Below are positions 2,664-62,135 of a stretch of DNA of 64,000 nucleotides, piece by piece. The notes under the pieces are model-generated. The model was not told the DNA's origin. It did not search any database and worked only from the letters and a program-made list of their open reading frames with translations. The position numbers were made by a program, and so were the translations under genes. Every line of letters starts with the position of its first letter. Position 1 is the stretch's first letter. Origin of the DNA: Argopecten irradians (Eukaryota > Mollusca > Bivalvia > Pectinida > Pectinidae); contig NC_091134.1 of NCBI RefSeq assembly GCF_041381155.1, positions 34,787,540 through 34,851,539 on the forward strand. The letters run 5' to 3'.

Positions 2664-4885
2664 GTGCTTTTTCTAATCAGACATATACTACACCAGAAAT
2701 CAAAAAACTTCTTGTTAGTATGAAGTTTTTCAAGGAAGTCGACCATGTGCCTGATTTTGTTGGGTAAGTACATTTGTATGTGTATTATATTGTATACCAG
2801 GTATATAAATTATAATATATACTTGATATGATAATAAATATAACAAGGACACAGATATTATATGGGATATTTCTTTTCCTATGTAAATCAAGCCATTATA
2901 TCTATAAATTACACGTTAGGATTTTGTTTATAACTTTGTATGTACTTTTAGATTGCTTAAAACTGTATTTATTTTTTGGAATACAAATATTTCAAAAATA
3001 AATGAAACCATATGGCTTTGTTTTTATGATGATAACCTTAAAGTAAAGGGAGCTAAATTAAAAAAAAAAATCAATTATTGTAAAACTCTTAAAAAACTTT
3101 GATACAATAGCCAGAAAAACTTTGATGCAATAGCCAGTTTAAACATTTTAAATAAAGGGGAGATAATATCATATTACATGTAAGAGACTATATTAAAGTT
3201 AGGCAAACAAAAATATGTCCGTTTTAATAGGGTTACATTGGCAAAAAAAAATAGGGTCGGTAGGTCGGGATATTTTTTTTTATGTCTCTCACTCTAAAAT
3301 AATGGCTGGAACCGGAGTCTGAGGCTTTTTAAAAAATAAATCTTGTTAAAGTGGGGAAAAAAATTAGGGTCGGGGTAAAAAATTAAGGTCGGTCGGGTAA
3401 CCCTTAACAGACATATTATATTTTTTGGCCTTATTAGTAATAGTCCATTCAAAATTTAGCAAAATCAAATATAAGAATAAGAGGCCCATGGGCCTTAACG
3501 GTCATCTGACACACGGGACAAAACAACAAAGTCACAGTATGAAGTAGTGGTTAACAACTAATATAAGCAATACAAGCTTAAGGAACTCCTTTGTTGAATA
3601 TGTAAGTTTCTGAAATAGGTAAAGGTCATTTGTTGAACAAACTTGGTAGCCCTTCATTCATATATGATTGTAATCCATTCAAGGATTAAGGAGGAGTCAG
3701 ATTTTAAAGTCAAATTTCTGCCAAGCTCCCAATTTGGACCTCCGCTGCTCTATCCCCATGGGTCTTACCTCAGTTCTTTATAAACTATGATTGTCCTCAC
3801 CTTAAGTTCCTATTCTGAGCTCCGCCACTCTGTCCCCAGGGGTCGGGCCTAACTCATTTATACAAAATATGATTGTCCTTCCCCAATGATGCTTCACACT
3901 AAATATGGATGAAATCCACTCAAGTGTTAATGAGGAGTAGGATTTTAAAGCTAAGATTAAAAAAATTTCCCCTTTTAGGGCCCTACCCCTCAGTCCCTAG
4001 GGATTAGACCAAGCTCATTTACATAAAACATGCTGCCCTTTGCCAATGATGTTTGAAAGCAAATATGAATAAAATCCACTCAAGGGTTAAGAATGAGTAG
4101 GAATTTAAAACTGAAATTAGAAATTTTTCTACTTTTGGGACCCCACCCCTCAGCCCTTAAGGGTTGGACCTAACTCATTTATATAAAATATGATTGCCCT
4201 TCCCCAATCATGTTTCACACCAAATATGGATGAAATCCATCCAAGGATGAAGGAGAAGTAGGATTTTAAAGCTAAAATTAAGAAAATTTCCCCTTTTGGG
4301 GCCCCATCCCTCAGCCCCTAGGGGTCGAAGCAGACTCATTTATATAAAATATGATTGTCCTTCCCCAATGATGTTGCATGCCAAATATGGATGTAATCCA
4401 CTGAAGGGTTAAAGAGGAGTAGGCTTTTGTATAAATAGTCTTACGCACGGCGCACAGGGCACGACGACCGACAAAACACGATGACAATAGGTCATCTTTG
4501 GGTCAGATGACCTAAAAACTAAATTGGGTACGTCTGATGGCCATCGTGGGATTTCTGGGATCGTTTAATATGAGAAAAATCAGCATTGTATTTTAATTAA
4601 ATCCAATGTATATGTAGTAAATATGTACATGTATTTACATTTCTTTCTTTGTCAATATTGTATCCAGTCCTAATTTGTTTTTTCAGATCCGGACTTGTAT
4701 CTCTTGCACATGACTTTTTCCGTGTGAGGATGTTTTTGACCATCATGAACGTGTTATTTTTCATCATTTGGCTAATGTTTATGTGGATAAGGAGGAAAAA
4801 GACAAGGGAATATGTGGAAAGGACCAGTATAAAGTATGAAGCCCATAGATCTAGAGAAGAACAGAATAAATTACGGAGGGAATAA
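2664..4885 (+). CDS. 3' end of an unrecognised single-pass membrane protein gene
   Basis: Two coding exons are visible: 2664-2763 (after a pyrimidine-rich CTGCAG acceptor, before GTAAGT) and 4687-4885 (after TTTTTTCAG, ending in TAA). The split codon restores glycine across the junction. Together they encode about 99 C-terminal residues; earlier exons lie left of the window. The peptide starts AFSNQTYTTPEIKKLL, runs through a short soluble stretch, then a hydrophobic helix (MFLTIMNVLFFIIWLMFMWI) that should span a membrane. It ends in a basic, charged tail (RRKKTREY to NKLRRE) that probably faces the cytosol. I do not recognise the family. An ATTAAA near 4993 could serve as the polyadenylation signal. 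The intron holds an inverted-repeat element and a hairpin-ended minisatellite element. Confidence 0.7.
3203..3430. mobile_element. Short inverted-repeat element (about 228 bp)
   Basis: The left end reads GGCAAACAAAAATATGTCCG and the reverse complement of the right end reads GGCCAAAAAATATAATATGT, followed on both sides by a GGGTTAC block. The interior has A-rich runs and AGGGTCGGTAGG-type segments in mirrored positions. No coding frame. Probably a MITE. Confidence 0.6.
3478..4516 (-). mobile_element. Hairpin-ended minisatellite element (Helentron-like), subfamily 1
   Basis: Read on the minus strand, it starts with a hairpin (GGTCATCTGACCC...GATGACC), has a short CGTC-type tract, then about four degenerate units of roughly 177 bp, and ends in GGCCCATGGGCCTCTTATT. 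The unit contains a conserved block around AATGATGTTTCACACC and a GGGGCCCCACCCCTCAG block. The same subfamily recurs at 43321-44853. No protein is encoded. It lies in the last intron of the membrane protein gene. Confidence 0.65.
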
Positions 4886-5446: not shown

Positions 5447-6100
5447 TTAGCTCACCTGGCCCGAAGGGCCGGTGAGCTTATGTCATGGCGCGGCGTCCGT
5501 CGTCGTTCGTCCGTCTGTCCGTCAACATTTCCTTTAAATCGCTACTAGTCATAGAGTTCTGCATGGATTGTAACCAAATTTGGCCACAAACATCCTTGGG
5601 GGAAGGGGAACAGAACTTGTATAAATTTTGGCTCTGACCCCCCGGGGGCAGGAGGGGCGGGGCCCAATAGGGGAAATAGAGGTAAATCCTATAAATCGCT
5701 ACTTGTCCTAGAGTTCTGCATGGTTTGTAACCAAATTTGGCCACAAACATCCTTCAGGGAAGGGGAACAGAACTTGTATAAATTTTGGCTCTGGCCCCCC
5801 AGGGGCTGGAGGGGAGGGGCCCAATAGGGGAATTATAGGTAAATCCTATAAATCGCTACTTGTCCTAGAGTTCTGCATGGTTTGTAACCAAATTTGGCCA
5901 CAAACATCCTTGGGGGAAAGGGAACAGAACTTGTATAAAATTTGGCTCTGACCCGCTGGGGGCAGGAGGGGTGGGGCCCAATAGGGGAATTAGAGATAAA
6001 TATTCAAATTCCTTTAGAAAAGAAACAATGAACCAGTATTCACAAACGTACTTGGCATTACAAACCAGGTGAGCGATACAGGCCCTCTGGGCCTCTTGTT
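5447..6100 (+). mobile_element. Hairpin-ended minisatellite element (Helentron-like), subfamily A
   Basis: It begins with a strong hairpin, AGCTCACCTGGCCC facing GGGCCGGTGAGCT, followed by a CGTC/CGTT tract, then three units of about 158 bp (AAATCGCTACTwGTC, TTTGGCCACAAACATCC, GGGGCCCAATAGGGG). It ends with the hairpin GGCCCTCTGGGCC and the tail TCTTGTT. A longer copy of the same subfamily sits at 23294-24591. No coding capacity. Confidence 0.7.
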
Positions 6101-8105: not shown

Positions 8106-11100
8106 TCACAGTATAGGTTTAGCTGGAAATTTGTAAGCTGTTCCACATCGTTCATAAAAAGCCTGAAAAAGAAGATATAAAATTAAAAAATTACGATGCA
8201 AAAATTGTCAACAAAATATTAATTCTGTTTTGTTCTATTTAGGGATGTACTCAGAGCCAATTTATTTTCACAAGCAATTAAATTTCATTTATTTTTGCAA
8301 CTGATTATTATTTGTGAAAATAAATTGCCATAAAAGCACTTCAAGTTCAATGTACATTCAAAATAAATCTTTTCAACTATAAATGGCAACAAGAAGCCTG
8401 TTGGCCTTAATGGTCATCTGACTATATTCCAGGATATTGGCACAAATCTACATAGTTACAGTAAACAGTAGTGGCTAACAAATAAGGCAGTACAAGGAAC
8501 TCCTTCCTTAAAGCTGTAAGTTTCTGATATATTTGATGACATTGACTTCAAAAGCAGGTCAAGTTCATTCATTTGAACAAACTTGTTAGCCCTTCATCCT
8601 TGTATGCTACAGGCCAAATGTACAAGGTACTCTAGGCCATATAGTTATTGACAAGAAATTATTTAAAGATTTTGACTGTTTGACCCCTGTGACCTTAAAT
8701 GAAAGTCAAGGTAATAAATTTGAATAAAATTGTTAGCCCTTCATCTACAGACACAATATAAGGTCTCTAATCTCTCAGTTATTCACAAGAAACTGTTTAA
8801 AGATTTTAGCCTTTTTGACCCAATTGTGACTTTAAATGGTGATCAAGGTCATTTATTTGAACATACTTGGTAGTCCTTCATCCCTGCATGTAGATCAGGT
8901 CTCTAGGTCTCTTGGTTAATGACAAGAAGTTGTTTAAAGATTTTAACCTATTTGACCCTTGTGCCATTGAATGAAGATCAAGGTCATTCATTTGAACAAA
9001 CTTTGTAGCCTTTCATTCTACTTTTGAAGAAGAAGCTGTTTAACGATGGACGCAGCACCACGGCATAAGCTTACCTTCGGGCAGGTGAGCTTAAAATGTA
9101 ACCTGATAAAACCTTTGAGCATTCTGTCTGTCGTTAAACACCTGTACACTGTTAAGTAAATTCTTATGCTGACAAATCTTAGCTCTAGTGTCAAATAGAC
9201 TAACTTCTTCACCTCATTTGCTCTTTAATATAAATGAATGATTGTAAGGTCAGAGTGGTACAGTATGTGAACTGATTCTTGTATCCTTGTTCACACCAGT
9301 GACACCCTTCCATAACTTCCAATATTACTTACTTTAAATGTTCTATCATTCACAACTTCATCTACATAGAACTCTGATTTCATTAGCCGCAACTGAAAAT
9401 GCAAAAAAAAAAATTTTTTTTTAAATCAAAACATTTTGCTTAATGCTGTACATGTACATGCAAAATGGATCAAGACTTTCACAGTATTGATAATAAAATT
9501 TCCAAGAATGTACATTGCTAGAAAATTCCAGTTTTAACTTAATGTCAAATATGAGATACATGTATAGGCTACTCTCGATTCAAACTGAACTTGAAGGTAG
9601 TTGTGTTAAAAAGAATTCATAACTGGGTATATCACAGGTACTTTGCTTGCCAACAAACAAACAAAAAATATATTTATTTCTTTTTTTTTGGTCAACCAGC
9701 TAATTATAGTGTACCCTAGCTTTGCAAATTGCTTTTATTCAGGGGGCTTTAATTTCCCTATACAAAAAAATGTATTTGTTGTCAAGTGAATTCGTAAAAT
9801 GTATTATGTTTATACCCACAAATACAATGGAAAAGGGGTAAAAAGGGTAAACTGTATAGTGTATTACTATTAAAAAATGACATTTCTAACAAAAATAAAT
9901 ATACAAGAGATCCCAGAGGGATCTTGGCACCCACTAAAGAATGACCTATATCTGACAAAGGAAAGATGGATCTTTTCTCTACTTTTTAAAATTTGAGATG
10001 GATCGCTTCAGTACTTTTGAGAAATAGCGGTAACAAACTTCAACTATCAAAATCCAAGATGACTCCTTGGCGGCCATCTTGTTGATCAATCAGTCCCAAA
10101 TCACAATATGCACAACTAGGGCCCTAGGGGGAACCTACATATGAAATTTGAGACAGATCCCTTCAGTACTTTCTGAGAAATAGCTATAATAATCTTTGAA
10201 TAACAAAATCCAAGATGGCTGCCAGGCGGCCATCTTGTTGACCGATCGGTCCCAAAATGCAATATGCACAACTAGGTCCCTAGGGGAACCTACATATGAA
10301 ATTTGAGACAGATCCCTTCAGTACTATCTGAGAAATAGCGATAACAAACTTTAACTATCAAAATCCAAGATGGCGGTCCGGCGGCCATCTTGTTGATCAA
10401 TCGGTCCCAAATCACAATATGCACAACTAGGGCCCTAGGGGGAACCTACATATGAAATTTGAGACAGATCCCTTCAGTACTTTCTGAGAAATAGCTATAA
10501 TAATCTTTGAATAACAAAATCCAAGATGGCTGCCAGGCGGCCATCTTGTTGACCGATCGGTCCCAAAATGCAATATGCACAACTAGGTCCCTAGGGGAAC
10601 CTACATATGAAATTTGAGACAGATCCCTTCAGTACTATATGAGAAATAGCGATAACAAACTTTAACTATCAAAATCCAAGATGGCGGTCCGGCGGCCATC
10701 TTGTTCACCGATTGGTCCAAAATTGCAATATGCACAACTAGGGCCCTAGGGGAACCTACATATCAAATTTGAGAAAGATCACTTCAGCACTTTTTGAGAA
10801 ATAGGGATATCAAACCTTAACTATCAAAATCCAAGATGTCCGCCTGGCGGCCATCTTGTTTTTCCTATCAGCCTCAAAATCTGTATGGCACAACTAGGGA
10901 CCAAGGGTAACCTCGTTGTGAAGTTTGAACAAAATCCCTTCAGTAGTTCTCAAGAAATATCGATAACAAACTTCAACTGCCAAAATCAAAGATGGCTGCC
11001 TGGCGGCCATCTTTTTCCCCGATCAGCCTCAAAATCTGTATGGCTCAACTAGGGACCAAGGGTACCCTCCATGTGAAGTTTGAACAAAATCCCTTTAGTA

Positions 11101-14100
11101 GTTCTCAAGAAATATTGATAACAAGTTGCAACTGCCAAAATCAAAGATGGCTATCTGGTGGCCATCTTGTTTTTCCGATCAGCCTCAAAATCTGAATGGC
11201 ACAGCTAGGGACCAAGGGTAACCTTCCTGTGAAGTTTGAACAAAATCCCTTCAGTAGTTTTCAAGAAATATTGATAACAAACTTCAACTGCCAAAATCAA
11301 AGATGGCTGCCTGGCGGCCATCTTGTTTTTCCGATCAGCCTCAAAATCTGAATGGCACAACAAGGGACCATGGGTAACCTCCATGTGAAGTTTGAACAAA
11401 ATCCCTTCTGTAGTTCTAAAGGAATTTCGATAACTAAAGGAATTTCGATAACAAACTTCAACTGCCAAAATCAAAGATGACTGCCTGGCGGCCATCTTGT
11501 TTTTCCGATCAGCCTCAAAATCTGTATGGCACAACTAGGGACCAAGGGTAACCTCCATGTGAAGTTTGAACAAAATCCCTGCAGTAGTTTTTAAGAAATA
11601 ATGATAACAAGCATTATTTATGGATGGATGACAGACGGCGGACAATGGACGACGGACCACAGACGCAGGGCTATTTGAATAGCCCACCATCTGTTGAAGG
11701 GCTAAAAACAGAAAAATGCAATCACCCTGCAAAATCAAACAACTACATGTACCACATATGCATGGTATATAGTACAATATATTACTTACAGTTGGAAAAG
11801 AGCATATATTCTGACAATAAATATTCTATAAATAGATATATAGGAATTAAAGGCTGATATGGATATCTTCACCTTTGTTTGAGCTTTCCGTAGATCTTTT
11901 TGCACATCCATATTGTCTAGGTCATTATCACGCTGTTTACTTAATTCTTTAACATTATCTGCTGCTTCTGTTACACATTTACGTATAGCTCGTTCTCTTG
12001 CCTGGTGTGATTTTATGATCTGTAACATAACAATATACACCACAGGATAATAAATAATGTTACATTTTATGTGTACATTCAATTTTGAACTGTAAATTAC
12101 ATATATGATAATGGTAATACAGGGGTTTCAAGATCCAAAAATGATGTGAGTAAAGTACAATTTACTGTCGATTAGTCCCAACATCTGGTGATTATAACGT
12201 CATCATTTAGCATGAGTTTTATGACATCATAAACACAGAAAGGCCTGACTAATTGATGGTAAATTGTACTTTACCCATATATGTTGTTTTTGGGATCTCA
12301 AAACCCCTATATTGTAATAGTACATATTTTTAATAGCACAACTTGCACTAATATATATGATATCGCTGATTTTATTTTCTCAATTTTTCTGTATGTTTTT
12401 AATGTAGAAATTATTAAAGATGCTCCACCGCCGACAGAGAATAAATGATATTCATTATTTGAACAATAATTGGTGTATTATCGTGTGTATATATGTCTAA
12501 TTAACACAAAAAATAATATAAAATAATTAATTTTGCCTTTGGTGAATGCGCAATCAGTACTTCACTCCATATAGGATATAGTGCTACGGATTTTTTTCGG
12601 GATGCAATTAATTATTTTTCATATCTTTAACTTGAAAATTAGAAGCTCAAACTTTTCAATGTTGGTGATAGTGTAAAGTAAGTAACTTTTGTAACTGAAG
12701 AAAAATACTAAATCGTCTGCTCCTAATTTTGATAGTGAAAATTACCATTTGTCGGCGGTGGAGCATCTTTAAGAATGTGCCTGGAAATGTGATTAGTAAT
12801 ATATATACTGTCTTAGCATACTTTACAATTTTCTTCATAATGACTTGCATTGTTCAACTAAATATAGAATGGGTACTTTTTGATAGGGCATCATTTCAGC
12901 ATGACACATTCATGTCGTGATATTCATTCATGATATAGGAAAAGGCTATGGATTTCAATTTTGGTTACTTTCTACATGTGTGAAAATAAAATTTCAGTCA
13001 TTAATTCCCCCTGAAATTCTATATTGAACTGTTATAGCTTCAGTTTTAGATTGGTTCAATTGTGTCTTCAGGGATGAATAAATTAAGTTAAACTAGTTGA
13101 TTACTCTGAAAATAGAACAGCTAACTCTACAAATATACCCCCTGTTATACTTAGTTGCTTCCATACATATTTCGTCAATCCTTATGATAAGACTCCACCC
13201 GTAGGATAAACATGCTTCATGGCATTAAAAGTGGGGTTGGTAGGGGTATTTTTGGGTCAAATATGGCAATTTGTTTGATCTTACCTCTTCGTAAAGGTTT
13301 TTACATGTTTCTGTTACATCTACTTTCTGTGAAAATAATTTAGTCGGTATTGCAGTATTCAAACCATGTATTATTCTATCGTCAACAATTCGCATTGCCT
13401 TCAGGCCTTCCTGTAACACAAAGAAAAACATCACAGTCTACCGGTACATTGGTTCTACATTAAATATGTGAAAAATTATGATTCTGTCAATTGAAAATAA
13501 CATGCACATTACTTTAACATGACTAATAACAGTATTATTTTTTTTTTAAATGGGGAAAAAAATCACAGTACTACGAGAAAAACCACCAACTGATGTGGTC
13601 AGTATACAGCAACCTCAAAATGCCTCAAATGTATATCCCAGATGTGGAAGGCAGAACATCTCCACTTGGACACTGCAGCCAAAAATCGACTGATCAGTCA
13701 AGCGTCCTATTAAAAGCCTGGATAATTTTAAAATGTGCCAGGTTTATAGGTGAAAAAAACTGTAGCAAGATCTAATACCCCATATGGGTATTAAACTTGC
13801 AACACAGAGGTTGAGGCCTAGCTTGGCCACTGCAGCTTGATCTTCCCAAAATGAGGTCAGTTTCAAAGCAAACAAAGGAAAGATCATTATTAAAAAATTA
13901 TTGAAAAAATGAATAAATACATATCTGGGAAATAGTTTAAATACAAAAAGACAAATTGTAAAATCTTCATTTGGATTATGTTTTTGTTGATGGAAAAATA
14001 TGTGCAGCCAGGCCTAGGTCTTATTTTAAGACATCCCACAAAATTAAGGACATGTGTGGGGTCATATTTGTGGAAGGTGTCTTATTTACATTGAACACGG

Positions 14101-23000: not shown

Positions 23001-26000
23001 TGCAGTGTGGTGTTTGTCCAATTTATGTAGAGGGAAAAATCCACCTCCCGACTTCAGCAAGGTAAAACCTGGGTTACTGTAAACTGGTGTGATTGCATTT
23101 CACTTAGTTATCCCCCGCCCAACGAAGTTGGCGGGGGATATACAAATGGGTTCCTTCCGTCTGTCCGTCTGTATGAATGGTTTCCGGAGCATAACTCTAA
23201 AACCAGTAGAGATATTTCCACGAAACTTCATACACACATTGGTCTTATGGTCTTGTAGTGCCTTTTGCTATTTTTAGGTTTTCATTTTTTGCTTTTTAGC
23301 TTATGTCATGGCGTGGCGTACGTCGTCCGTCCGTCCGTCGTCCGTCCGTCGTCCGTCCGTCGTCCGTCCGTCCGTCTGTCCGTCAACATTTCCTTTAAAT
23401 CGCTACTAGTCATAGAGTTTTGCATGGATTGTAACCAAATTTGGCCACAAGCATCCTTGGGGGAGGGGTAAAAGAACTTGTATAAATTTTGGCTCTGACC
23501 CCCCCGGGGGCAGGAGGGGTGGGGCCCAATAGGGGAAATAAAGGAAAATCCTATAAATCGCTACTTGTCCTAGAGTTCTGCATGGATTGTAACCAAATTT
23601 GGCCACAAACATCCTTGGGGGAAGGGGAACAGAACTTGTATAAATTTTGGCTCTGACCCCCCGGGGGTAGGAGGGGCAGGGCCCAATAGGGGAAATAGAG
23701 GTAAATCCTTTAAAACCCTACTTGTCCTAGAGTTCTGCATGGATTGTAACCAAAATTAGCCACAAACATCCTTGGGGGAAAGGGAACAGAACTTGTATAA
23801 ATTTTGGCTCTGATCCCCCAAGGGCAAGAGGGGCGGGGCCCAATAGGGGAAATAGAGGTAAATCCTTTAAATCGCTACTAGTCATAGAGTTCTGCATGGA
23901 ATGTAACCAAATTTGGCCAGAAATATCCTTGGGAGAATATGAACTGAGTTTGTATGAATTTTGGCTCTGGTCCCGGGGGGGCAGAAGGGCGGGGCCCAAT
24001 AGGGGAATTATAAGTAAATCCTAAAAATCGGTACTTGTCCTAGAGTTCTGCATGGATTGTAACCAAATTTGGCCATAAACATCCTTGGGGGTAGGAGAAC
24101 AGAACTTGTATCAATTTTGGCTTTGACCCTCCGGGGGCAGGAGAGGGGGGGCGCCCAATAGGGGAAATAAAGGTAAATCCTTTAAATCGCTACTAGTCAT
24201 AGATTTCTGCATGGAATGTAACCAAATTTGGCCATAAATAATCCTTTTTGGAAGGGAAACAGAACTTGTATAAATTTTGGCTCTGGCCCCCCGGGGGCAG
24301 AACGGGTGGGGCCCAATAGGGGAAATAAAGGTAAATCCTATAAATCGCTACTTGTCCTAGAGTTTTGCTTGGATTGTGACCAAATTTGGCCATTAACATC
24401 CTTGGGGGAAGGGGAACAGAACTTGTATAAATTTTGGCTCTGACCCCCTGGGGAAGGAGGGGTGGGGCCCAATAGGGGATTTAGAGGTTAATATTAAAAT
24501 TCCTTCAGAAAAGAAACAATGAACCTGTATTCAGAACATTACTTGGCATTACAAACCAGGTGAGCGATACAGGCCCTCTGGGCCTCTTGTTTTTTCGTAA
24601 CCATGGAAACATTGCTGAAAATATCATATTTTTGTACCAGGTTCGTTTCCGGAGCATAACTCTAAAACCAGAAGAGATATTTCCACGAAACTTCATAGAC
24701 ACATTGGTCTTATGGTCTAGTAGTGCCTTTTGCTATTTTAAGGTTTTCACTTTTTGTACTTTTTTCTGTAACTATGGAAACATTGCTGAAAATGGCAGAT
24801 TTTTGTGTAAGAATCGTTTCCGGAGCACAACTCTAAAACCAGCAGAGATATTTCCATGAAACTTCATAGACACATTGTTCTTATGGTCTAGTATGTAGTG
24901 CCTTTTGCTATTTTTAGGTTTTCTTTTTTTGCACTTTTTCGGTAACCATGGAAACATTGCTGAAAATATCATATTTTTGTACCAGTTTCGTTTCCGCAGC
25001 ATAACTGGAAAACCAGTTGAGATATATGCACGGAACTCCATAGGCACATTAGTCTTATGGTCTAGTAGTGCCTTTTGCTATTTTAAGGTTTTCACTTTTT
25101 GTACTTTTTTCTGTAACCATGGAAACATTGCTGAAAATGGCAGATTTTTGTGTAAGAATCGTTTCCGGAGCACAACTCTAAAACCAGCAGAGATATTTCC
25201 ATGAAACTTCATAGACACATTGTTCTTATGGTCTAGTAGTGCCTTTTGCTATTTTTAGGTTTTCACTTTTTGTGCTTCTTTTCTGTAACCATAGAAACAT
25301 TGCTGAAAATATCATATTTTTGTAGCAGGTTCATTTCCGGAGAATAACTCTAAAACCAGCAGAGATATTTCCACAAAACTTCATAGACACATTCTTTTTA
25401 TGGTCTAGTAGTACCTTTTGTTATTTTTAGGTTTTCATTTTTTGCACTTTTTTCGTTACCATGGAAACATTGCTGAAAATATCATGGTAAATGGTAAATG
25501 TTACTTTGCAAAACTCCACCCATCTTTGTGTATATAGTCTAATATAAATGTCAAGGCTGTATATTTGATTCAACAGTTGCAGCCCCGCTCTACTTGAATT
25601 ATACTCCATCTTTCTTTAGCTCAACTTCCTTTTTCCTGGTTTTTTAGGTCATCTGACCCGAAGGGTCAGGATGACCTATAGTCGTCATGTTTCGTCCGTC
25701 GTCGTCCGCCGTCCGCCGTGCGCCGTGCGTTAATCCAAGATGGCCGCCAAAGCCGCCATCTTGAAAACACATTTTTAACTTCTTCTCAAGTTCTACCGGT
25801 GCGATAAGGCTGAAACTTGCATGAAATGATCTTGACATGGTCCCGACAAAGTGTTGTTATTTTTCGGGTCGATCCGAAATCCAAGATGGCAGCCACAGCG
25901 GCCATCTTGAAAACACATTTTGAACTTCTTCTCAAGTTCTACAAGTGCGATTTGGCTGAAACTTGCATGAAATGATCCTGACATGGTCCCGACAAAGTGT

Positions 26001-29000
26001 TGTTACTTTTCGGGTCGATCCGAAATCCAAGATGGCCGCCACATCCGCCATCTTGAAAACACATTTTGAACTTCTTCTCAAGTTCTACCAGTGCGATTTG
26101 GCTGAAACTTGCCTGAAATGATCCTGACATGGTCCCGACAAAGTGTTGTTATTTTTCGGGTCGATCCGAAATCCAAGATGGCCGCCAAAGCCGCCATCTT
26201 GAAAACACATTTTGAACTTCTTCTCAAGTTCTACCAGTGCGATTAGGCTGAAACTTGCATGAAATGATCCTGACATGGTCCCGACAAAGTGTTGTTATTT
26301 TTCGGGTCGACCCGAAATCCAAGATGGCCGCCACAGCCGCCATCTTGAAAACACATTTTGAACTTCTTCTCAAGTTCTACCGGTGCGATTAGGCTGAAAC
26401 TTGCATGAAATGATCCTGACATGGTCCCGACAAAGTGTTGTTATTTTTCGGGTCGATCCGAAATTCAAGATGGCCGCCACAGCCGCCATCTTGAAAACAC
26501 ATTTTGAACTTCTTCTCAAGTTCTACCGGTGAAGTTTGGCTGAAACTGGCATGAAATGATCCTGATATGGTCCCCACAAAGTGTTGTTATTTTTCGGGTC
26601 GATCCGAAATCCAAGATGGCCGCCAAAGCCGCCATCTTGAAAACACATTTTGAACTTCTTCTCAAGTTCTACCGGTGCGATTAGGCTGAAACTTGCATGA
26701 AATGATCCTGACATGGTCCCGACAAAGTGTTGTTATTTTTCGGGTCGATCCGAAATCCAAGATGGCCGCCAAAGCCGCCATCTTGAAAACACATTTTGAA
26801 CTTCTTCTCAAGTTCTACCAGTGCGATTAGGCTGAAACTTGCATGAAATGATCCTGACATGGTCCCGACAAAGTGTTGTTATTTTTCGGGTCGATCCGAA
26901 ATCCAAGATGGCCGCCACAGCCGCCATCTTGAAAATACATTTTGAACTTCTTCTCAAGTTCTACCGGTGCGATTTGGCTGAAACTTGCATGAAATGATAC
27001 TGACATGGTCCTGACAAAGTGTTGTTATTTTTCGGGTCGATCCGAAATCCAAGATGGCCGCCAAAGCCGCCATCTTGAAAACACATTTTGAACTTCTTCT
27101 CAAGTTCTACCGGTGCGATTAGGCTGAAACTTGCATGAAATGATCCTGACATGGTCCCGACAAAGTGTTGTTATTTTTCGGGTCGATCCGAAATCCAAGA
27201 TGGCCGCCACAGCCGCCATCTTGAAAATACATTTTGAACTTCTTCTCAAGTTCTACAGGTGCGATTAGGCTGAAACTGGCATGAAATGATCCTGACATGG
27301 TCCTGACAAAATGTTGTAACTTTTCGGGTCGATCCGAAATTCAAGATGGCCGCCACAGCCGCCATCTTGAAAACACATTTTGAACTTCTTCTGAAGTTCT
27401 ACCAGTGCGATTTGGCTGAAACTTGCATGAAATGATCCTGACATGGTCCCGACAAAGTGTTGTTACATCTCTGGTTGATCCTAAATCGAAGATGGCTACC
27501 ATGACACTATATCTAATTAATTTCCTACATGTTAAGGCCCTTTGGCCTCTTGTTTGAAATAAAATTTGTTGAAAGAAATTGAAAATGATCCTGACATGGT
27601 CCTGACAAATGACACCATATGAAATTAGATTTACTATTGCCAAGGTAGTCAGATGACCGTTAAGGCCCTTTGGGCCTCTTGTTTTCATACACATAAGTCT
27701 CCACAATCAAACTTACTTCAGCTTTGATATCTCCATTAGCGGGGGATCTGAATGACTATGTCCTTGTTTCATAGGCTATTAAAAATTGAGAACATATGTT
27801 TAAGTTTCAATTGTGTTTCAAATATGTAGAATACTGTATTATTTGCATTATAAGCCCCGTCTGTAATAAACACAAATCCGCATCCTCTATTTTCCTAATT
27901 ATATTTATCCAACCTAAGTCACAAAACTTCCCATCAGAACGTCAAATGTTCACACTGTAAATGATATAAAACAAGAGAGTCAGTTTCATATTCATAGCAT
28001 CACATTTGTCTTAGCCATATAAGCTTACGATGATGATATAAACTTGCAAATATTTTGTCACATGTACATGTACTGCACTTTTGCTATTATGTCAAAGAGA
28101 TAAGTCTATATTAAATGTGTACCTAGTTCCTTTGATGTATGAAATGCATGTTCACTTCTCCACATTACAGTTAGAAATTTCTGAAACCTAGGTTTATATT
28201 GAGTGTTGGCTTTAAATCATATTCTGTTATTGTTGATGAATAAATGCTAAATATTATTTCGTTTGTTTTATTATAGGTGTTGCCTTCCCTGCCAGTATTA
28301 GCAAAACTCCTCTTCCACACAGACAAAGACGTCCTTTCCGATGCCTGTTGGGCACTCTCGTACCTGTCCGATGGTCCAAATGAGAAAATACAAGCTGTGA
28401 TAGACTCAGGTGTTTGTAGGAGACTAGTGGAACTCCTCATGTAAGAATGATATTTCTGATATATAAATCAATTGGCAGTGTTGGGTATGCCTCTTCTATG
28501 AATGGGAAAGGCATTTAAAAATATTACCTATGTTTGTCTTATTTGTACTGTCTACAGTCCCATGAAAAGCTGCCCCCACTCTTACATTACAGTAAAGTTT
28601 CATAGGCATTTGTTAACTTTAAAATAATTAAGATAACTTAAAATTGCTATATTGTCAATACTTGATACTACAGAAAAATAACTTTCAAAGACACATATTA
28701 TTGTTGAAACTCTTGTGTGTAATAAAATATTTGTTGAAAGTTTCATGCACAGTTTTTAAATATGTTAAGCATCAATTATTATCCCCCGCGAAACGCGTTT
28801 GCGGGGGATATTGATTTGGGCTCTGTCCGTCCGTCCGTCCGTCCATCCGTCCGTCCGTCTGTCCGAGTATCGTTTCCGGGCTATAACTCCTAAACCGTTC
28901 AACTTGGCTACACGAAACTTTCTGTACATGTTAGGCTAGTGCTCTAGTTGTGCCTTTTGCTAATGGGAACCTTTCATTTTCGATACTTTTTCTGTTACCA

Positions 29001-32000
29001 TGGAAACTTATTCAAAAATACCATATTATTAAAGTTTCCTTTCTATTCCGGGCTATAACTCGAAAACCGTTCAACTTGGCTACACGAAACTTTCTGTACA
29101 TGTTAGGCTAGTGCTCTAGTTGTGCCTTTTTCTAATGGGAACCTTCCATTTTCAATACTTTTTCTGTTACCATGGAAACTTATCAAAAAATACCATATTA
29201 TTAAAGTTTCCTTTCTATTCCGGGCTATAACTCGAAAACCGTTCAACTTGGCTACACGAAACTTTCTGTACATGTTAGGCTAGTGCTCTAGTTGTGCCTT
29301 TTGCTAATGGGAACCTTTCATTTTCGATACTTTTTCTGTTACCATGGAAACTTATTCAAAAATACCATATTATTAAAGTTTCCTTTCTATTCCGGGCTAT
29401 AACTCGAAAACCGTTCAATTTGGCTACACGAAACTTTCTGTACATGTTAGGCTAGTGCTCTAGTTGTGCCTTTTTCTAATGGGAACCTTCCATTTTCAAT
29501 ACTTTTTCTGTTACCATGGAAATTTATTAAAAAAATACCATATTATTAAAGTTTCCTTTCTATTCCGGGCTATAATCGAAAACCATTCAACTTGGCTACA
29601 CGAAACTTTCTGTACATGTTAGGCTAGTGCTCTAGTTGTGCCATTTGCTAATGGGAACCTTTCATTTTCGATACTTTTTCTGTTACCATGGAAACTTATT
29701 CAAAAATACCATATTATTAAAGTTTCCTTTCTATTCCGGGCTATAACTCGAAAACCGTTCAATTTGGCTACACGAAACTTTCTGTACATGTTAGGCTAGT
29801 GCTCTAGTTGTGCCTTTTTCTAATGGGAACCTTCCATTTTCAATACTTTTTCTGTTACCATGGAAATTTATTAAAAAAATACCATATTATTAAAGTTTCC
29901 TTTCTATTCCGGGCTATAATCGAAAACCATTCAACTTGGCTACACGAAACTTTCTGTACATGTTAGGCTAGTGCTCTAGTTGTGCCATTTGCTAATGGGA
30001 ACCTTTCATTTTCGATACTTTTTCTGTTACTATGGAAACTTATTTAAAAATACCATATTATTAAAGTTTCCTTTCTATTTCAGGCTATAACTCAAAAACC
30101 GTTCAACTTGGCTACACGAAACTTTCTGTACATGTTAGGCTAGTGCTCTAGTTGTGCCTTTTGCTAATGGGAATCTTTCATTTTAAACTCTTATTTACAA
30201 TGAGCTTCATTTATTTTATGTTTGAGCTTTCATACACAACTGGGCGCAGGGGATAATGCCAAGCTTTGCGGCTCCTTGTTTTAGACAGAAATTCACACCT
30301 TAATTCTGGAATTAACTCTGGCACAAACAGTCATTTTAATTTTCACTAATACCTTTGTATTTATGACTTTTCCGTTTTCATGTTGCCAGGCACAGCCATC
30401 AGAGTGTGGTATCTGCTGCCCTGCGAGTAGTAGGAAACATAGTGACAGGTGATGATTATCAAACACAGGTATGTCTCAGTTACTTTTCTAAGGGAAGTAA
30501 CTCGTACAAAGTTGTACTAATACATGTAAAGTTTATATGCAGTTAGTATCATTTCCATTTTATTCTTCTTCTGCAAATTAGATAAGTTTTATCATTTGAC
30601 ACATTCTTTAACATGACAGGAGAAAAATTATGCAACTTCAGTTTTGAATTTGTTGATTTATAAAAGTTTTCCTGAATTGAATGTCATATATTTATTTTCC
30701 ATATCTTATATGACTGAAAAACTATGGTTAGAAATTGATTAAAGTGAGGCATGTTTTTTGCAGGTGATTTTGAGCTGTTCAGCTCTGCCTTGTCTTTTAC
30801 ATCTTCTCAGTAGTTCCAAAGAATCCATACGCAAAGAAGCCTGTTGGACAATATCAAATATTACAGCAGGAAACAGAGTACAAATACAGGTCAGTTAGTC
30901 TAAGAAAACCTTAATGTCTTAGATATGGTCAGTTAATACATAATCATAGAAAGTTTAGGATATGGTCAGTTTATACATAATCTCTGAAAGTTTTCTTAAA
31001 TACCTATTAAAGATGTTGTCAGTTAGCACATAATCTTTGAAATCTTACATTTGCCGTCTATCATATGTATTATCATATTGATGAGTTTGTCTTTGTTTTT
31101 CAGTGTGTTATAGATTCAAATATATTCCCAGTGCTAATAGATATATTAGGAAAAGCAGATTTCAAAACGAGGAAGGAAGCTGCATGGGCGATAACAAATG
31201 CAACTTCTGGTGGTTCTCCTGAACAGATCAGGTAACTTAAACCCTTTCTACCTGTAACATACAGAAAATGTCTTTACTTTTGCAACCAGAGTAAATGTTT
31301 AGTAAATGGCAACATCATGTGAAACCATAAAATGTGTTATGACCTCATAATATTGTTGAAGACATTAACTTACAGACCTTTTGAATAAATATTTGAATAT
31401 ACACAAAAACAACAATTTCTTTGTAGGAACAAAATTTAAATATTTTTTTCCTAGGAAAATTACACATAATGACTCTCAAAAACCTTGCCAAGATGGTACA
31501 CTTATTGATTGGTTTGGATTTGTATCACACAGGTTTTTGGTGGATCAAGGCTGCATCTCCCCACTTTGTGATCTTTTGACTGTGATGGACGCTAAGATTG
31601 TTCAGGTGGCCTTGAATGGTCTGGAAAACATCTTGAAGCTCGGAGAACAGGATGCAAAACTACACAATGGCACAAACCCATATGCTGTTATGATTGAGGA
31701 ATGCTATGGTATGATATAGCCTGTTGATTTGATCAGTAGTATAGTACATGCATGAAAATGAATATATGTAGTGAGAGATGTGAGGAGCCCTACTCTACTT
31801 AAGTTGTGCGTGGATTTGTGATTTACATCTTTGTGCTGTGCTATGTTATGCTCTATAACAGCCCTTCTATTGTGTGTCCAGTTTAAGACCTTGAGCCAGT
31901 AAGCCAAATAGAAATACGAGTCAATATATTTTGAATACCCATCAGAAGTCAGATATAAATGTTAAGGCCTTTAGACGTCTTTGTCTATAAATCTTTGACT

Positions 32001-43219: not shown

Positions 43220-44990
43220 TTAATTCAGATATAAGGACAAAGCTACCTTCATAAACCTCATTAAAGCACTAGTTAGGTCTCGCCTACAATATTCATCAAC
43301 ATTTTGGTCACTTATAGTAACAAGAGGCCCATGGGCCTTAACGGTCATCTGACTCATGGCACAAAACAACAAAGTCACAGTATAAAGTAGTGGTTAATAA
43401 TTAATATAAGCAATACATGGAACTCCTTTGTTGAATATGTAAGTTTCTGAAAAAGGTAAAGGTCATTTGTTGAACAAACTTGGTAGCCCTTCATCCATAT
43501 ATAGTTGTAACCCATTCAAGGATTAAAACCTTTGAAACCCCTATAGATCAATTTTCGTTGAGATCAGAGACCGAAACCTGAAAACAGGAAGTGGGCCAGC
43601 AGCCATTTTGGAATACCAAAATCTTTACGAAAATGTTTGCATGTTGTTCGCCATCCTTTAAAACCCCAATTGACCCATTTTCAGTGAGATCGGAGACCGA
43701 AACCTGAAAACATGATGTGGGCCAGTGGCCATCTTGGATTACCAAAATCTTCATACAAAATATGATTGTCCTTCCCTAATGATGTTTTACGCCAAATATG
43801 GAAAAAGGCCACACAAGGGTTAAGGAGAAGTAGGATTTTAAAGATAAATTTCAATGAAGTTCCCCCTTCTGAGCCCCACCCCTCTGTCCTCCCCAGGGGA
43901 ACTCGTTCATATAAAATATAATTGTCCTTCCCAAATGATGTTTCACACCAAACATGGATGAAATCCTATCAAGAGTTAAGGAGGAGAAGGATTTTAGAGC
44001 TAAAATTTAAAAAAAATCCCCTTTTGGGGTCCCACCCCTCAGTCCCTAGGGGTTCAAGCAAGCTCATTTATATAAAATATGACTGCCCTTTGCCCATGAT
44101 ATTTCACACCAAATATGGATGAAATCCACTCAAGGGTTAAGGAGTAGGATTTTAAAACTAAAATCAGAATTTTTTCTTCTTTTGGGGCCCTGCCCCTTAG
44201 CCCCTAGGAGTAGGAGTAGGCTCATTTATGAAAAATATGATTGTCCTTCCCCAATGATGTTTCACACCAAATATGGATGAAATCCATCCAAGGATGAAGG
44301 AGGTGTAGGATTTTAAAGCTTAAATTAAAAAAAATTGCACTTTTGGGGCCCGCCCCTCTGCCCCTAGGGGTAGGACCTATTTCACTTATATAAAATATGA
44401 TTGTCCTTCCCCAATGATGTTTCACACCAAACATGGATGAAATCAATCCAAGGATGAAGGAGGTGTAGGATTTTAAAACTTAAATTAAGAAAATTTGCAC
44501 TTTTGGGGCCCCACCCCTCAGCCCCTAGGGGTCGGACCAAGCTCATTTATATAAAATCTGATTGTCCTTCCCCAATGATGTTTCACACCAAATATGGATG
44601 AAATCCATCCAAGGATGAAGGAGGAGTATGATTTTAAAGCTAAAATTAAGAAAAATTGCCCTTTAGGGGCCCCACCCCTCATCCCCTAGGGGTCGGACCT
44701 ATTTCACTTATATAAAAGTAGCGGAGGAGTAGTGTTTTAAAGGAAAAAGTTTACGCACGACGGACGCACGGCGGACGGCTGACGGCGGACGACGACGGAC
44801 GAATCACGATGACTATAGTCATCCTGACCTTTCGGGTCAGATGACCTAAAAAGAGAAAATTGGTTAACGAAGAGCCATCAAACTAGTAATATCGCCAAAA
44901 TGCGCAGAAGAGTTTCTTGATTTATGACCAACACAACTCCCTGATAAACGAATAAGGATGGACATGATAGAAGAGACCACTGTGACAAAA
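43220..44990 (+). mobile_element. LINE reverse-transcriptase fragment split by a later insertion
   Basis: The left piece (43220-43320) encodes FINLIKALVRSRLQYSSTFW, the thumb-proximal motif of CR1/Jockey-type reverse transcriptases. The right piece (about 44855-44990) encodes RRAIKLVISPKCAEEFLDL and, after a stop, KRIRMDMIE, the motif that follows in the same families. A hairpin-ended element at 43321-44853 lies between. Highly truncated and dead. Confidence 0.65.
43321..44853 (-). mobile_element. Hairpin-ended minisatellite element, subfamily 1, second copy
   Basis: On the minus strand it starts AGGTCATCTGACCCGAAAGG / TCAGGATGACT, with a CGTC/CGTCCGCC tract. It has about six units of roughly 177 bp (AATGATGTTTCACACC, GGGGCCCCACCCCTCAG) and a variant block near 43540-43740. 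It ends GGCCCATGGGCCTCTTGTT. It is the longer relative of 3478-4516. Confidence 0.75.
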
Positions 44991-56449: not shown

Positions 56450-58400
56450 TTATTGGACAAACCCTCTCTTGCTTACGGGACCCACACCCCCATGCGTAGC
56501 CGACGGGAACCACATGGGTCATCTCCTTCCGCGAAAAGCAGAACTCGGACCCCCTGTGTAGCTAACAGGTCCCACATTCATTGTGAACTAAATGGCTCCA
56601 CGCCCTCTTGTGTAACTAACAGGTCCCACAACATCCTGTGTAAATATCAGGTTCCACAGCCTCTTGTATAACTAAAACGTCCCACACAATATTGCGTAAC
56701 TAACAAGTCCAACGCCCTTTTATGAAGATCCCACACCCTCCTGTGTAGCTAACAGGTCCCACACCATCCTGTGTAGCTAACAGGTCCCACACCCTCCTGT
56801 GTAGCTAACAGGTCTCAAAACCTCCTGTGTAGCTAACATGTCCCTCATCCTCCTGTGTAGCTAACAGGTCCCACACCCTCCTGTGTAGCTAACAGGTCTC
56901 AAAACCTCCTGTGTAACTAACACGTCCAACAACCTTCTGGGTATCTAACATGTCCCACACTCTCCTGTGTAGCTACCATGTCCCACACCATCCTGTGTAA
57001 CTAACAGGTCCCACGCCATCTTGTGTAACTACCAGGTCCCACACCATCCTGTGTAACTAACAGGTCCCACGCCATCTTGTGTAACTACCAGGTCCCATAC
57101 CCCCCTGTGTTGCTTACATGTCCAACACCATCCTGTGTATCTAACATGTCCCACACCATCCTGTGAGGCTAATAAGTTCTACACCCTCTTGTCCCATACC
57201 CCCCTGTGTTGCTTACATGTCCCACACCATCCTGTGAGGCTAATAAGTTTTACACCCTCTTGTGTAACTAACAGGTCCAACAACATCCTTTGTAACTAAC
57301 AGGTCCCACAACCTCCTGTGTAGCTAACATGTCCCACACCATCCTGTGTAACTTACAGGTCCAACAACCTTCTGTGTATCTAACAGGTCCCACGCCATCC
57401 TGTGTAACTAACAGGTCCCACAACCGTCTGTGTATCTAACAGGTTCCACACCTTTCTGTGTAGCTATTAGGTCCCACACCATCCTGTGTAACTAACAGGT
57501 CCTACATCCTCTGGTGTATGTAACAGGTCACACACTCTTCTGTGTAGCTAAACAGGTCCAATACCCTTCTGTGTAGCTAACAGGTCCCACATCCTCCTGT
57601 GTAACTAACAGGTCTCACACCCTCCAGTGTAACTAACAGGTCTCACACCCTCCTGTGTAACTAACAGGTCCCACATCCTCCTGTGTAACTAACAGGTCCC
57701 ACATCCTCCTGTGTAACTAACAGGTCCAACACCCTCCTGTGTAACTAACAGGTCCAACACCCTCCTGTGTAACCAACAAGTCCAACACCCTCCTGTGTAT
57801 CTAAACAGGTCCAATACCCTTCTGTGTAGCTAACAGGTCCCACATCCTCCTGTGTAACTAACAGGTCCCACACTCTCCTGTGTAGCTAACAGGTCTCACA
57901 TCCTCCTGTGTAACTAACAGGTCCCACATCCTCCTGTGTAACTAACAGGTCCCACATCCTCCTGTGTAACTAACAGGTCCCACACCCTCCTGTGTAACTA
58001 ACAGGTCTAATACCCTCCTGTGTAACTAACATATCCCACACCCTCCTGTGTAACTAACATATCCCACACCCTCCTGTGTAACTAACAGGTCTAGTACCCT
58101 CCTGTGTAGATAAGAGGTCCCAAACCCTTCTATGTAGCTAACATGTCCCACACCCTCCTTTTTATCTAACAGGTCCTACACCCTCCTGTTTAGCTAACAC
58201 TAACAGGTCCCACATCCTCCTGTGTAGCTAACATGTCCCACACCCTCCTTTTTATCTAACAGGTCCTACACCCTCCTGTTTAGCTAACACTAACATGTCC
58301 CACATCCTCCTGTGTAACTAACAGGTCCCATACCCTCCTATGTAGATACATGACCCACACCCTTCTTTGTAGCAAACAAGTCCCATATGATCTTGTGAAG
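56450..58400 (+). repeat. Satellite array 1, degenerate 28-bp unit
   Basis: About 65-70 head-to-tail copies of a unit like CCTCCTGTGTAACTAACAGG followed by TCCCACAC. Copies vary in AACT/AGCT, CAGG/CATG and CACAC/CATCC/CAACA. Copies at the left edge (56450-56600) are the most decayed. Longer local duplications occur, for example 58136-58200 and 58223-58290. The plus-strand frame at 56339-56671 is incidental. Confidence 0.9.
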
Positions 58401-58489
58401 AATTTCATGTCCCTAAACCTCTTTTGTAATTCATATGTCTCACTTTTTTGTGAGAAGCTAATAAGACCTCTCTAATATTTTCAAAATAT

Positions 58490-61400
58490 GTACCTAGCGT
58501 GATTCACCCTCTTGTGTAGCTAATGTGATCCAATATATCCTCATATGTACCTAGTGTGATGTTCACCCTCTTGTGTAGCTAATGTGATCCAATATATCCT
58601 CTATATGATTCCCTCTTGTGTAGCTAATGTGATCCAATATATCCTCATATGTACCTAGTGTGATGTTCGCCCTCTTGTGTAGCTAATGTGATCCAATATA
58701 TCCTCATATGTACCATAGTGTGATGTTCACCCTCTTGTGTAGCTAATGTGACCCAATATATCCTCATATGTACCTAGTGTGATGTTCCCTCTGTGTAGCT
58801 AATGTGATCCAATATATCCTCATATGTACCTAGTGTGATGTTCACCCTCTTGTGTAGCTAATGTGATCCAATATATCCTCATATGTACCTAGTGTGATGT
58901 TCACCCCTCTTGTGTAGCTAATGTGATCCAATATATCCTCATATGTACCTAGTGTGATGTTCACCCTCTTGTGTAGCTAATGTGATCCAATATATCCTCA
59001 TATGTACCTAGTGTGATGTTCACCCTCTTGTGTAGCTAATGTGATCCAATATATCCTCATATGTACCTAGTGTGATGTTCACCCTCTTGTGTGTAGCTAA
59101 TGTGATCCAATATATCCTCATATGTACCTAGTGTGATGTTCGCCCTCTTGTGTAGCTAATGTGATCCAATATATCCTCATATGTACCTAGTGTGATGTTC
59201 ACCCTCTTGTGTAGCTAATGTGATCCAATATATCCTCATATGTACCTAGTGTGATGTTCACCCTCTTGTGTAGCTAATGTGATCCAATATATCCTCATAT
59301 GTACCTAGTGTGATGTTCACCCTCTTGTGTAGCTAATGTGATCCAATATATCCTCATATGTACCTAGTGTGATGTTCACCCTCTTGTGTAGCTAATGTGA
59401 TCCAATATATCCTCATATGTACCTAGTGTGATGTTACCCTCTTGTGTAGCTAATGTGATCCAATATATCCTCATATGTACCTAGTGTGATGTTCACCCTC
59501 TTGTGTAGCTAATGTGATCCAATATATCCTCATATGTACCTAGTGTGATGTTCACCCTCTTGTGTAGCTAATGTGACCCAATATATCCTCATATGTACCT
59601 AGTGTGATGTTCACCCTCTTGTGTAGCTAATGTGATCCAATATATCCTCATATGTACCTAGTGTGATGTTCACCCTCTTGTGTAGCTAATGTGATCCAAT
59701 ATATCCTCATATGTACCTAGTGTGATGTTCACCCTCTTGTGTAGCTAATGTGACCCAATATATCCTCATATGTACCTAGTGTGATGTTCACCCTCTTGTG
59801 TAGCTAATGTGATCCAATATATCCTCATATGTACCTAGTGTGATGTTCACCCTCTTGTGTAGCTAATGTGATCCAATATATCCTCATATGTACCTAGTGT
59901 GATGTTCACCCTCTTGTGTAGCTAATGTGATCCAATATATCCTCATATGTACCTGTGTGATGTTCACCCTCTTGTGTAGCTAATGTGATCCAATATATCC
60001 TCATATGTACCTAGTGTGATGTTCACCCTCTTGTGTAGCTAATGTGATCCAATATACTCCTCATATGTACCTAGTGTGATGTTCACCCTCTTGTGTAGCT
60101 AATGTGATCCAATATATCCTCATATGTACCTAGTGTGATGTTCACCCTCTTGTGTAGCTAATGTGATCCAATATATCCTCATATGTACCTAGTGTGATGT
60201 TCGCCCTCTTGTGTAGCTAATGTGATCCAATATATCCTCATATGTACCTAGTGTGATGTTCACCCTCTTGTGTAGCTAATGTGATCCAATATATCCTCAT
60301 ATGTACCTAGTGTGATGTTCACCCTCTTGTGTAGCTAATGTGATCCAATATATCCTCATATGTACCTAGTGTGATGTTCACCCTCTTGTGTAGCTAATGT
60401 GATCCAATATATCCTCATATGTACCTAGTGTGATGTTCACCCTCTTGTGTAGCTAATGTGTGACCAATATATCCTCATATGTACCTAGTGTGATGTTCAC
60501 CCTCTTGTGTAGCTAATGTGATCCAATATATCCTCATATGTACCTAGTGTGATGTTCACCCTCTTGTGTAGCTAATGTGATCCAATATATCCTCATATGT
60601 ACCTAGTGTGATGTTTGCCCTCTTGTGTAGCTAATGTGATCCAATATATCCTCATATGTACCTAGTGTGATGTTCACCCTCTTGTGTAGCTAATGTGACC
60701 CAATATATCCTCATATGTACCTAGTGTGATGTTCACCCTCTTGTGTAGCTAATGTGACCCAATATATCCTCATATGTACCTAGTGTGATGTTCACCCTCT
60801 TGTGTAGCTAATGTGATCCAATATATCCTCATATGTACCTAGTGTGATGTTCACCCTCTTGTGTAGCTAATGTGATCCAATATATCCTCATATGTACCTA
60901 GTGTGATGTTCACCCTCTTGTGTAGCTAATGTGATTCAATATATCCTCATATGTACCTAGTGTGATGTTCACCCTCTTGTGTAGCTAATGTGATCCAATA
61001 TATCCTCATATGTACCTAGTGTGATGTTCACCCTCTTGTGTAGCTAATGTGATCCAATATATCCTCATATGTACCTAGTGTGTGTTCACTCATTTACCTA
61101 GTGTGTTCCCTTTGTGTAGCTAATGTGACCAATATATCCTCATATTACCTGTGATGTTCACCCTCTTGTGTAGCTAATGTGACCAATATATCTCATATGT
61201 ACCTAGTGTGATGTTCACCCTCTTGTGTAGCTAATGTGATCCAATATATCCTCATATGTACCTAGTGTGATGTTCACCCTCTTGTGTAGCTAATGTGATC
61301 CAATATATCCTCATATGTACCTAGTGTGATGTTCCCCTCTTGTGTAGCTAATGTGACCAATATATCCTCATATGTACCTAGTGTGATGTTCACCCTCTTG

Positions 61401-62135
61401 TGTAGCTAATGTGATCCAATATATCCTCATATGTACCTAGTGTGATGTTCACCCTCTTGTGTAGCTAATGTGATCCAATATATCCTCATATGTACCTAGT
61501 GTGATGTTCACCCTCTTGTGTAGCTAATGTGATCCAATATATCCTCATATGTACCTAGTGTGATGTTCACCCTCTTGTGTAGCTAATGTGATCCAATATA
61601 TCCTCATATGTACCTAGTGTGATGTTCACCCTCTTGTGTAGCTAATGTGATCCAATATATCCTCATATGTACCTAGTGTGATGTTCACCCTCTTGTGTAG
61701 CTAATGTGATCCAATATATCCTCATATGTACCTAGTGTGATGTTCGCCCTCTTGTGTAGCTAATGTGACCCAATATATCCTCATATGTACCTAGTGTGAT
61801 GTTCACCCTCTTGTGTAGCTAATGTGATCCAATATATCCTCATATGTACCTCGTAGTTCCTCATATGTACCTAGTGTGATGTTCACCCTCTTGTGTAGCT
61901 AATGTGATCCAATATATCCTCATATGTACCTAGTGTGATGTTTGCCCTCTTGTGTAGCTAATGTGACCCAATATATCCTCATATGTACCTAGTGTGATGT
62001 TTGCCCTCTTGTGTAGCTAATGTGATCCAATATATCCTCATATGTACCTAGTGTGATGTTCACCATCTTGTGTCTCTAATGTGACCCAATATATCCTCTC
62101 TAAAGTGACCCAATATATCCTCATATGTACCTAGT
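58490..62135 (+). repeat. Satellite array 2, homogeneous 59-bp unit
   Basis: Roughly 60 head-to-tail copies of a 59-bp unit with the blocks TGATGTTCACCCTCTTGTGT, AGCTAATGTGATCC and AATATATCCTCATATGTACC. Most copies are identical. Recurrent variants are GATCC to GACCC and GTTCACC to GTTCGCC or GTTTGCC; disrupted copies cluster near 58600, 61080-61200 and 61850. The first half resembles the 28-bp unit of array 1. Confidence 0.95.

Follow-up and report, generated by a model that had tools for sequence, protein, structure and literature searches.

Facing YY1-type motifs

What does a dense array of facing YY1-type motifs do in an intron of an importin-alpha gene of Argopecten irradians? The array lies in a 64,000 nt stretch of this genome (the window; coordinates are window positions unless a contig is named), and a preliminary description had noted about a dozen 146-bp units, each with an inverted motif pair that could bind or soak up YY1, act as an enhancer or boundary, or be a replication signal. 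That observation is right, and the phenomenon is larger than first described: judged by its anatomy, a non-autonomous Helentron (HINE) occupies part of the importin-alpha intron, and the array makes up its satellite core. The same motif recurs in transposon repeats that are otherwise unlike, which suggests that it helps these transposons to spread, and the most likely way for it to work would be by drawing host YY1 to the element in cells where the element moves.

Tandem Repeats Finder (TRF) gave the array (family C, Table 1) a period of 146 bp and 12.1 copies with 95% matches, in agreement with the initial count of units. The array contains 13 copies of the core AAGATGGC and 12 of GCCATCTT, with paired cores 18 bp apart and successive left cores 146 bp apart, without exception; the surplus left core stands at the array end (27489). 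All these cores carry GCCAT followed by CTT on one or the other strand, GCCAT and TT being described as important in the YY1 site in the relevant section of PMC11602158. The extended motifs as originally written occur 11 times (AAGATGGCCGCC) and 10 times (GCCGCCATCTT), giving 21 rather than the proposed 24 instances, while the facing arrangement stands when the cores are counted. The motif was also clearly separated from shuffled sequence, as AAGATGGCCGCC with up to two mismatches had 46 matches in the window (G+C 0.353), against a mean of 1.15 and a largest value of 7 in 100 shuffles. Within 11 of the 12 units, differences from the consensus affected 0 of 198 arm cells, 7 of 110 spacer cells and 34 of the 1,298 remaining cells.

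The designation of the pairs as YY1-type was upheld by the match to the YY1 core and by the presence of a YY1 ortholog with conserved fingers in the same genome, as contig C3 carries two exons that each show 95% identity to the human YY1 fingers, over query residues 8–63 and 57–118 of 121. The best solved-structure match of the second exon is 1ubd, YY1 on DNA. Binding of YY1 to the array is likely. Among the matches listed for the YY1 query, contig C13 has many C2H2 zinc-finger matches, pointing to large finger-gene clusters there.

The array is the core of a HINE

The left end of the element (AGGTCATCTGACCC...) follows a T run at 25646, and its right end (...GTCAGATGACCGTTAAGGCCCTTTGGGCCTCTTG) stops at 27681 and is followed by TTTT; these ends also delimit further copies, with differing outer flanks. 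Between them are two 11-bp subterminal inverted repeats that are exact complements, a short inverted repeat beside the 5′ subterminal repeat together with a microsatellite, and a 3′ palindrome near the end, followed by TCTTG (Table 1). Most copies have a T run on the 5′ side and TT on the 3′ side, with L080 and L086 among the exceptions. The element has no coding capacity, the longest ATG-initiated open reading frame touching it being 117 aa and the others, which recur with the units, 59–64 aa. There are 104 Helitron_like_N matches in the genome, and proteins of the superfamily are therefore present. A stand-alone regulatory array was ruled out, as the C array sits inside the mapped element.

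The 3′ terminal palindrome of the C element is doubled at 27531–27681 and in loci L024 and L071, as though a second terminator had been captured, and two identical 5′ ends with the same preceding bases lie 463 bp apart (L086:738 and L086:1201), representing a local tandem duplication. A C-like HINE 3′ end was seen approximately 1.4 kb downstream of a YY1 finger exon (L016:3125).

Genome-wide distribution of the motif

The motif CAAGATGGCNGC occurs 59,601 times (29,755 + 29,846) in 845.8 Mb, compared with about 95 occurrences expected by arithmetic at the G+C of the window. The same pattern read backwards occurs 62 times, which may be a low control count because the reversed pattern holds a CpG, and a permuted pattern occurs 151 times, many of these within one array. 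An array matched by the permuted control lies at G000:C2:45080040-45085277, with a spacing of approximately 52–54 bp. Exact facing pairs number 12,871 genome-wide, and two gaps account for 12,737 of them, with 8,476 having the gap of family C and 4,261 that of a second family (D), and all other allowed gaps contributing 134. Other words of these elements also recur, with 9,273 matches for a C flank 24-mer, 7,132 for a D flank 18-mer, 3,412 for a 20-mer from the D 3′ end and 1,290 for a 24-mer of a third family (E). A search for the facing pair in viral contigs gave 0 matches.

The first 100 CAAGATGGCNGC sites listed, which span C1:92442-3446783, the beginning of a single contig, and need not be typical of the genome, were classed by their flanks without the motif, giving 66 D, 26 C, 5 E and 3 unplaced sites. 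D thus outnumbers C among these sites, whereas the genome-wide gap counts favour C. Three of the 100 (L053, L055 and L063) lie outside the satellite families, and could be ordinary promoter sites.

One motif in unlike repeat units

Families C and D both lie as arrays in the window, while the E unit is 126 bp long and has a single arm. With the motif masked, local similarity between the families was at noise level (C–D z 0.7, C–E z -0.9, D–E z 0.1), and homology of C and D outside the motif was rejected, with an alignment score of 75 against a mean of 60.9 for shuffles (standard deviation 8.8, maximum 82). When ten unit families were compared, C–D and C–E had words of up to 14 bp in common and D–E words of up to 12 bp, and in all three cases the longest word is the motif, although its sharing by E is by choice, as E was found via the motif; the other 42 of the 45 family pairs share words of 11 bp at most. 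D is weakly similar to families A157 (z 4.4) and B172 (z 4.0). By eye, E units sit among F161-type units, and the element that holds them has a right end that starts like the C end. In the E units of L047, L056 and L057, the single YY1-type arm is closely followed by CACTTCCTG, which we take to resemble an ETS site.

Arm changes on spreading lineages

Substitutions were compared in units chosen by a flank word rather than by the motif (40 C units from 8 loci and 62 D units from 15 loci), the C set representing 8 of 30 loci, one per array, with a ninth array (L094-L096) left out, and in motif-chosen sets, from which one exact-arm unit was dropped per locus. The arms of the flank-chosen D units had 0.057 substitutions per site versus 0.092 in the rest of the unit (base-matched P 0.0011). 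At the motif-chosen loci the values for arms and rest were 0.044 versus 0.101 in D and 0.029 versus 0.032 in C, and the true place of the motif ranked 3rd of 128 offsets in D.

In unit trees, changes on a branch above units of at least two loci were classed as deep and those within one locus as local, and same-shaped windows, each left out of the tree, served as controls. Leaving the control windows out equally weakened the effect, which was still present. For the flank-chosen units plus those of the 64,000 nt window, deep arm changes numbered 4 in D against a control mean of 13.4 (3 of 51 control windows as low) and 0 in C against 3.6 (4 of 44), and for all units 18 in D against 48 (0 of 14) and 1 in C against 6.1 (2 of 30), suggesting that deep arm changes are about three-fold or more rarer than in control windows on the lineages that spread. 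Local arm changes in the same two sets numbered 57 against 83.3 and 117 against 187.9 in D, and 27 against 25.9 and 64 against 52.9 in C; in resident C copies, the motif thus appears to decay freely once in place.

Function of the array

We consider it somewhat probable that the facing AAGATGGC cores are binding sites for host YY1 that help the HINE to spread, with the array as its satellite core. This explanation is built on sequence features, namely the element with its two ends, the excess of the motif across the genome, the three unlike unit families, the two fixed spacings and the few arm changes on spreading lineages. YY1 would bind the array in the germ line or early embryo, where the paired and repeated sites would act jointly to hold the element in chromatin that is open, transcribed or remodelled, and copies with intact sites would be those mobilised by the Helentron machinery. 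The YY1 sites would then serve transposon spread, much as YY1 sites serve the promoter monomers of mouse L1, and an effect on the importin-alpha gene, if any, would be a side effect.

Several observations weigh against this explanation. The arms of the flank-chosen C units show no excess conservation (0.038 substitutions per site versus 0.031 in the rest), and at motif-chosen C loci the true motif place ranked 30th of 118 offsets; the initial proposal that the motif is better conserved than some flanking bases therefore holds in the C array of the window and fails across C copies genome-wide. The deep-change test is modest, considering the numbers of control windows with counts as low, and its outcome is suggestive because the control windows overlap, units within one array share ancestry, and the sets of all D and all C units include motif-chosen loci. 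Since the local counts in D are low as well, part of the D effect is general and not specific to spreading lineages. Neither AAGATGGC nor GCCATCTT was found in the three Helitron_like_N loci examined (of the 104 matches). Finally, we infer the binding of YY1 to the units, and the least certain step is the action of YY1 at a non-coding element.

The absence of excess motif conservation in C would also be expected if Helentrons amplified satellite units that held the motif by chance, with the motif inert and its sharing by C, D and E a result of old common descent or unit exchange, and HINEs do amplify arbitrary-looking satellite cores, according to the part of PMC7492417 that deals with them. 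We consider this unlikely, as deep arm changes are few in both C and D and just the motif word is retained in units that are otherwise unlike; common descent that kept just this word would itself imply constraint. Another alternative is a service to the host, in which the intronic array would be kept as an enhancer, boundary or YY1 sponge. The number and density of the sites speak for such a role, as does the effect of YY1 dosage on the imprinted Peg3 domain (PMC4361396, in the portion consulted), and sheer site number makes a YY1 sponge possible. The resident C copies, however, show no host-level constraint, because their arms decay as freely as elsewhere, making a host-serving function improbable. 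The location in an importin-alpha intron was confirmed by the Arm repeat encoded downstream, but the enhancer or boundary for importin-alpha suggested earlier is not supported in that form: the array is a single copy of a transposon core that has thousands of units in the genome, and the C copies show no constraint on the motif, so that no local role in the intron is indicated.

The facing repeat might also be kept for its secondary structure, as a stem in the single-stranded DNA of rolling-circle replication, where it might imitate the 3′ terminal palindrome and its CTTG as a decoy. The pair folds better than shuffled sequence (two C units, z -4.9 and -5.3; one D unit, z -3.6), and its end, CATCTTG, is similar to the element end CTCTTG. 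The 12-bp stem that had been proposed is, however, interrupted in C by a C.C mismatch, leaving 9 bp and 2 bp on either side. Arm positions had changed on the left, the right or both sides in 10, 13 and 2 cases in C and 37, 19 and 2 cases in D, and compensatory changes were found at 0 of these 25 and 0 of these 58 positions. As no change restored pairing and the E units are single-armed, a pair of protein sites is a better fit than a stem, and the replication signal put forward in the preliminary description is disfavoured; we regard a role as hairpin as highly improbable.

Novelty and implications

The element is of a known kind, and what is new, as far as our searches show, is the presence of dense paired YY1-type sites in HINE satellite cores, common to cores that are unlike. 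Literature combining YY1 and Helitrons, judged by titles and the start of abstracts, contained nothing on such sites, with subscription papers mostly outside the search. Among the matches listed for papers combining three of YY1, satellite, Helitron and mollusc, YY1 featured in none, and the sole match for YY1 and oyster was on amphioxus. Motif 12-mers gave no paper on satellites by title among the matches listed, and the element-end sequences gave no match.

The function of HINE satellite cores is left unexplained in the sections consulted of the HINE papers (PMC4067079, PMC7492417). A host-factor site that is common to unlike cores and slow to change on spreading lineages makes the question of core function testable, and rolling-circle mobility may in part depend on recruiting a host factor. 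Tens of thousands of transposon-borne YY1 sites would, if occupied, have to enter every regulatory map of the genome. We tentatively raise the further possibility that Helentron satellites unlike one another arrived at the host YY1 site by convergence, or captured it repeatedly, since YY1 binding mobilises a rolling-circle element; almost every strong YY1-type motif in the genome would then be the product of a transposon, and YY1-dependent looping and promoter use may have been rewired genome-wide.

Other features of the window

The window contains a second HINE on the opposite strand, with D ends and an array of D units (Table 1). An element at approximately 43321–44847 has C-type ends around an unrelated core of 161-bp units, and HINE ends and cores are therefore modular. 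Further tandem arrays were found at 3834–4428, 5530–6001, 8643–9021, 23391–24479, 24590–25485, 28874–30184 and 43753–44717, and a long minisatellite with units of 28, 56 and 59 bp at 56549–62122.

Table 1. Position and basis of the features identified in the 64,000 nt window
Feature	Position	Strand	Basis
Putative non-autonomous Helentron (HINE), family C ends	25646..27681	+	Both ends recur with different outer flanks at other loci; HINE anatomy as in the section consulted of PMC4067079
5′ subterminal inverted repeat GGTCATCTGAC	25647..25657	+	Exact 11-bp complement of 27648-27658
Inverted repeat able to pair with the 5′ subterminal repeat region	25663..25677	+	Read from sequence
CGTC/CGCC microsatellite, typical of HINE left ends	25693..25729	+	Read from sequence; equal position in other copies
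Array of 12.1 tandem C units of 146 bp, with facing YY1-type cores at 18-bp spacing	25732..27496	+	TRF, motif counts
Second copy of the 3′ terminal palindrome, inside the element	27531..27552	+	Read from sequence; present in loci L024 and L071 too
3′ subterminal inverted repeat GTCAGATGACC	27648..27658	+	Read from sequence
3′ terminal palindrome GGCCCTTTGGGCC	27664..27676	+	Read from sequence
Importin-alpha exon (Arm repeat), downstream of the C array	28277..28441	+	Translation
Second HINE, family D ends, with YY1-pair array	9904..11703	-	Ends located by end comparison
Tandem array of D units of ~155 bp, whose facing YY1-type cores are nearer by one base than in C	9989..11610	-	TRF, motif scan

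Comparison with known systems

The ISX elements of Drosophila miranda are Helitron-like. As described in part of PMC4384637, ISX is a transposon by which sites bound by a host regulator were scattered, which resembles the situation proposed here, but it concerns one complex, one new X chromosome and 77 sites, in contrast to a general factor with its motif in three satellite families. The imprinted Peg3 domain likewise has a cluster of YY1 sites in a gene region, and differs in being a single-locus control region rather than a transposon core (PMC4361396, in part). In structure, the C element agrees with the definition of DINE-1/HINE elements, and its insertion sites may likewise be T-rich, although the central repeats are presented without mention of a YY1 motif in the section consulted of PMC4067079. 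Cg_HINE of Crassostrea gigas similarly has subterminal inverted repeats, an inverted repeat, a microsatellite and a 3′ palindrome around satellite-like central repeats, with modular ends and cores and many dispersed copies, and its central repeats are described without mention of a transcription-factor site in the corresponding part of PMC7492417. In function, the likeness is with the mouse L1 Tf monomers as treated in the portion of PMC11602158 used here: this is a retrotransposon promoter with demonstrated YY1-dependent transcription, unlike the non-coding rolling-circle element with facing site pairs reported here. The tandem promoter monomers depend on their YY1 sites, with the activity of a two-monomer promoter lost when both motifs are mutated, and, like the array in the importin-alpha intron, they are tandem transposon units that each carry a GCCATCTTG-type YY1 site; they act together, as we propose for the units of the array.

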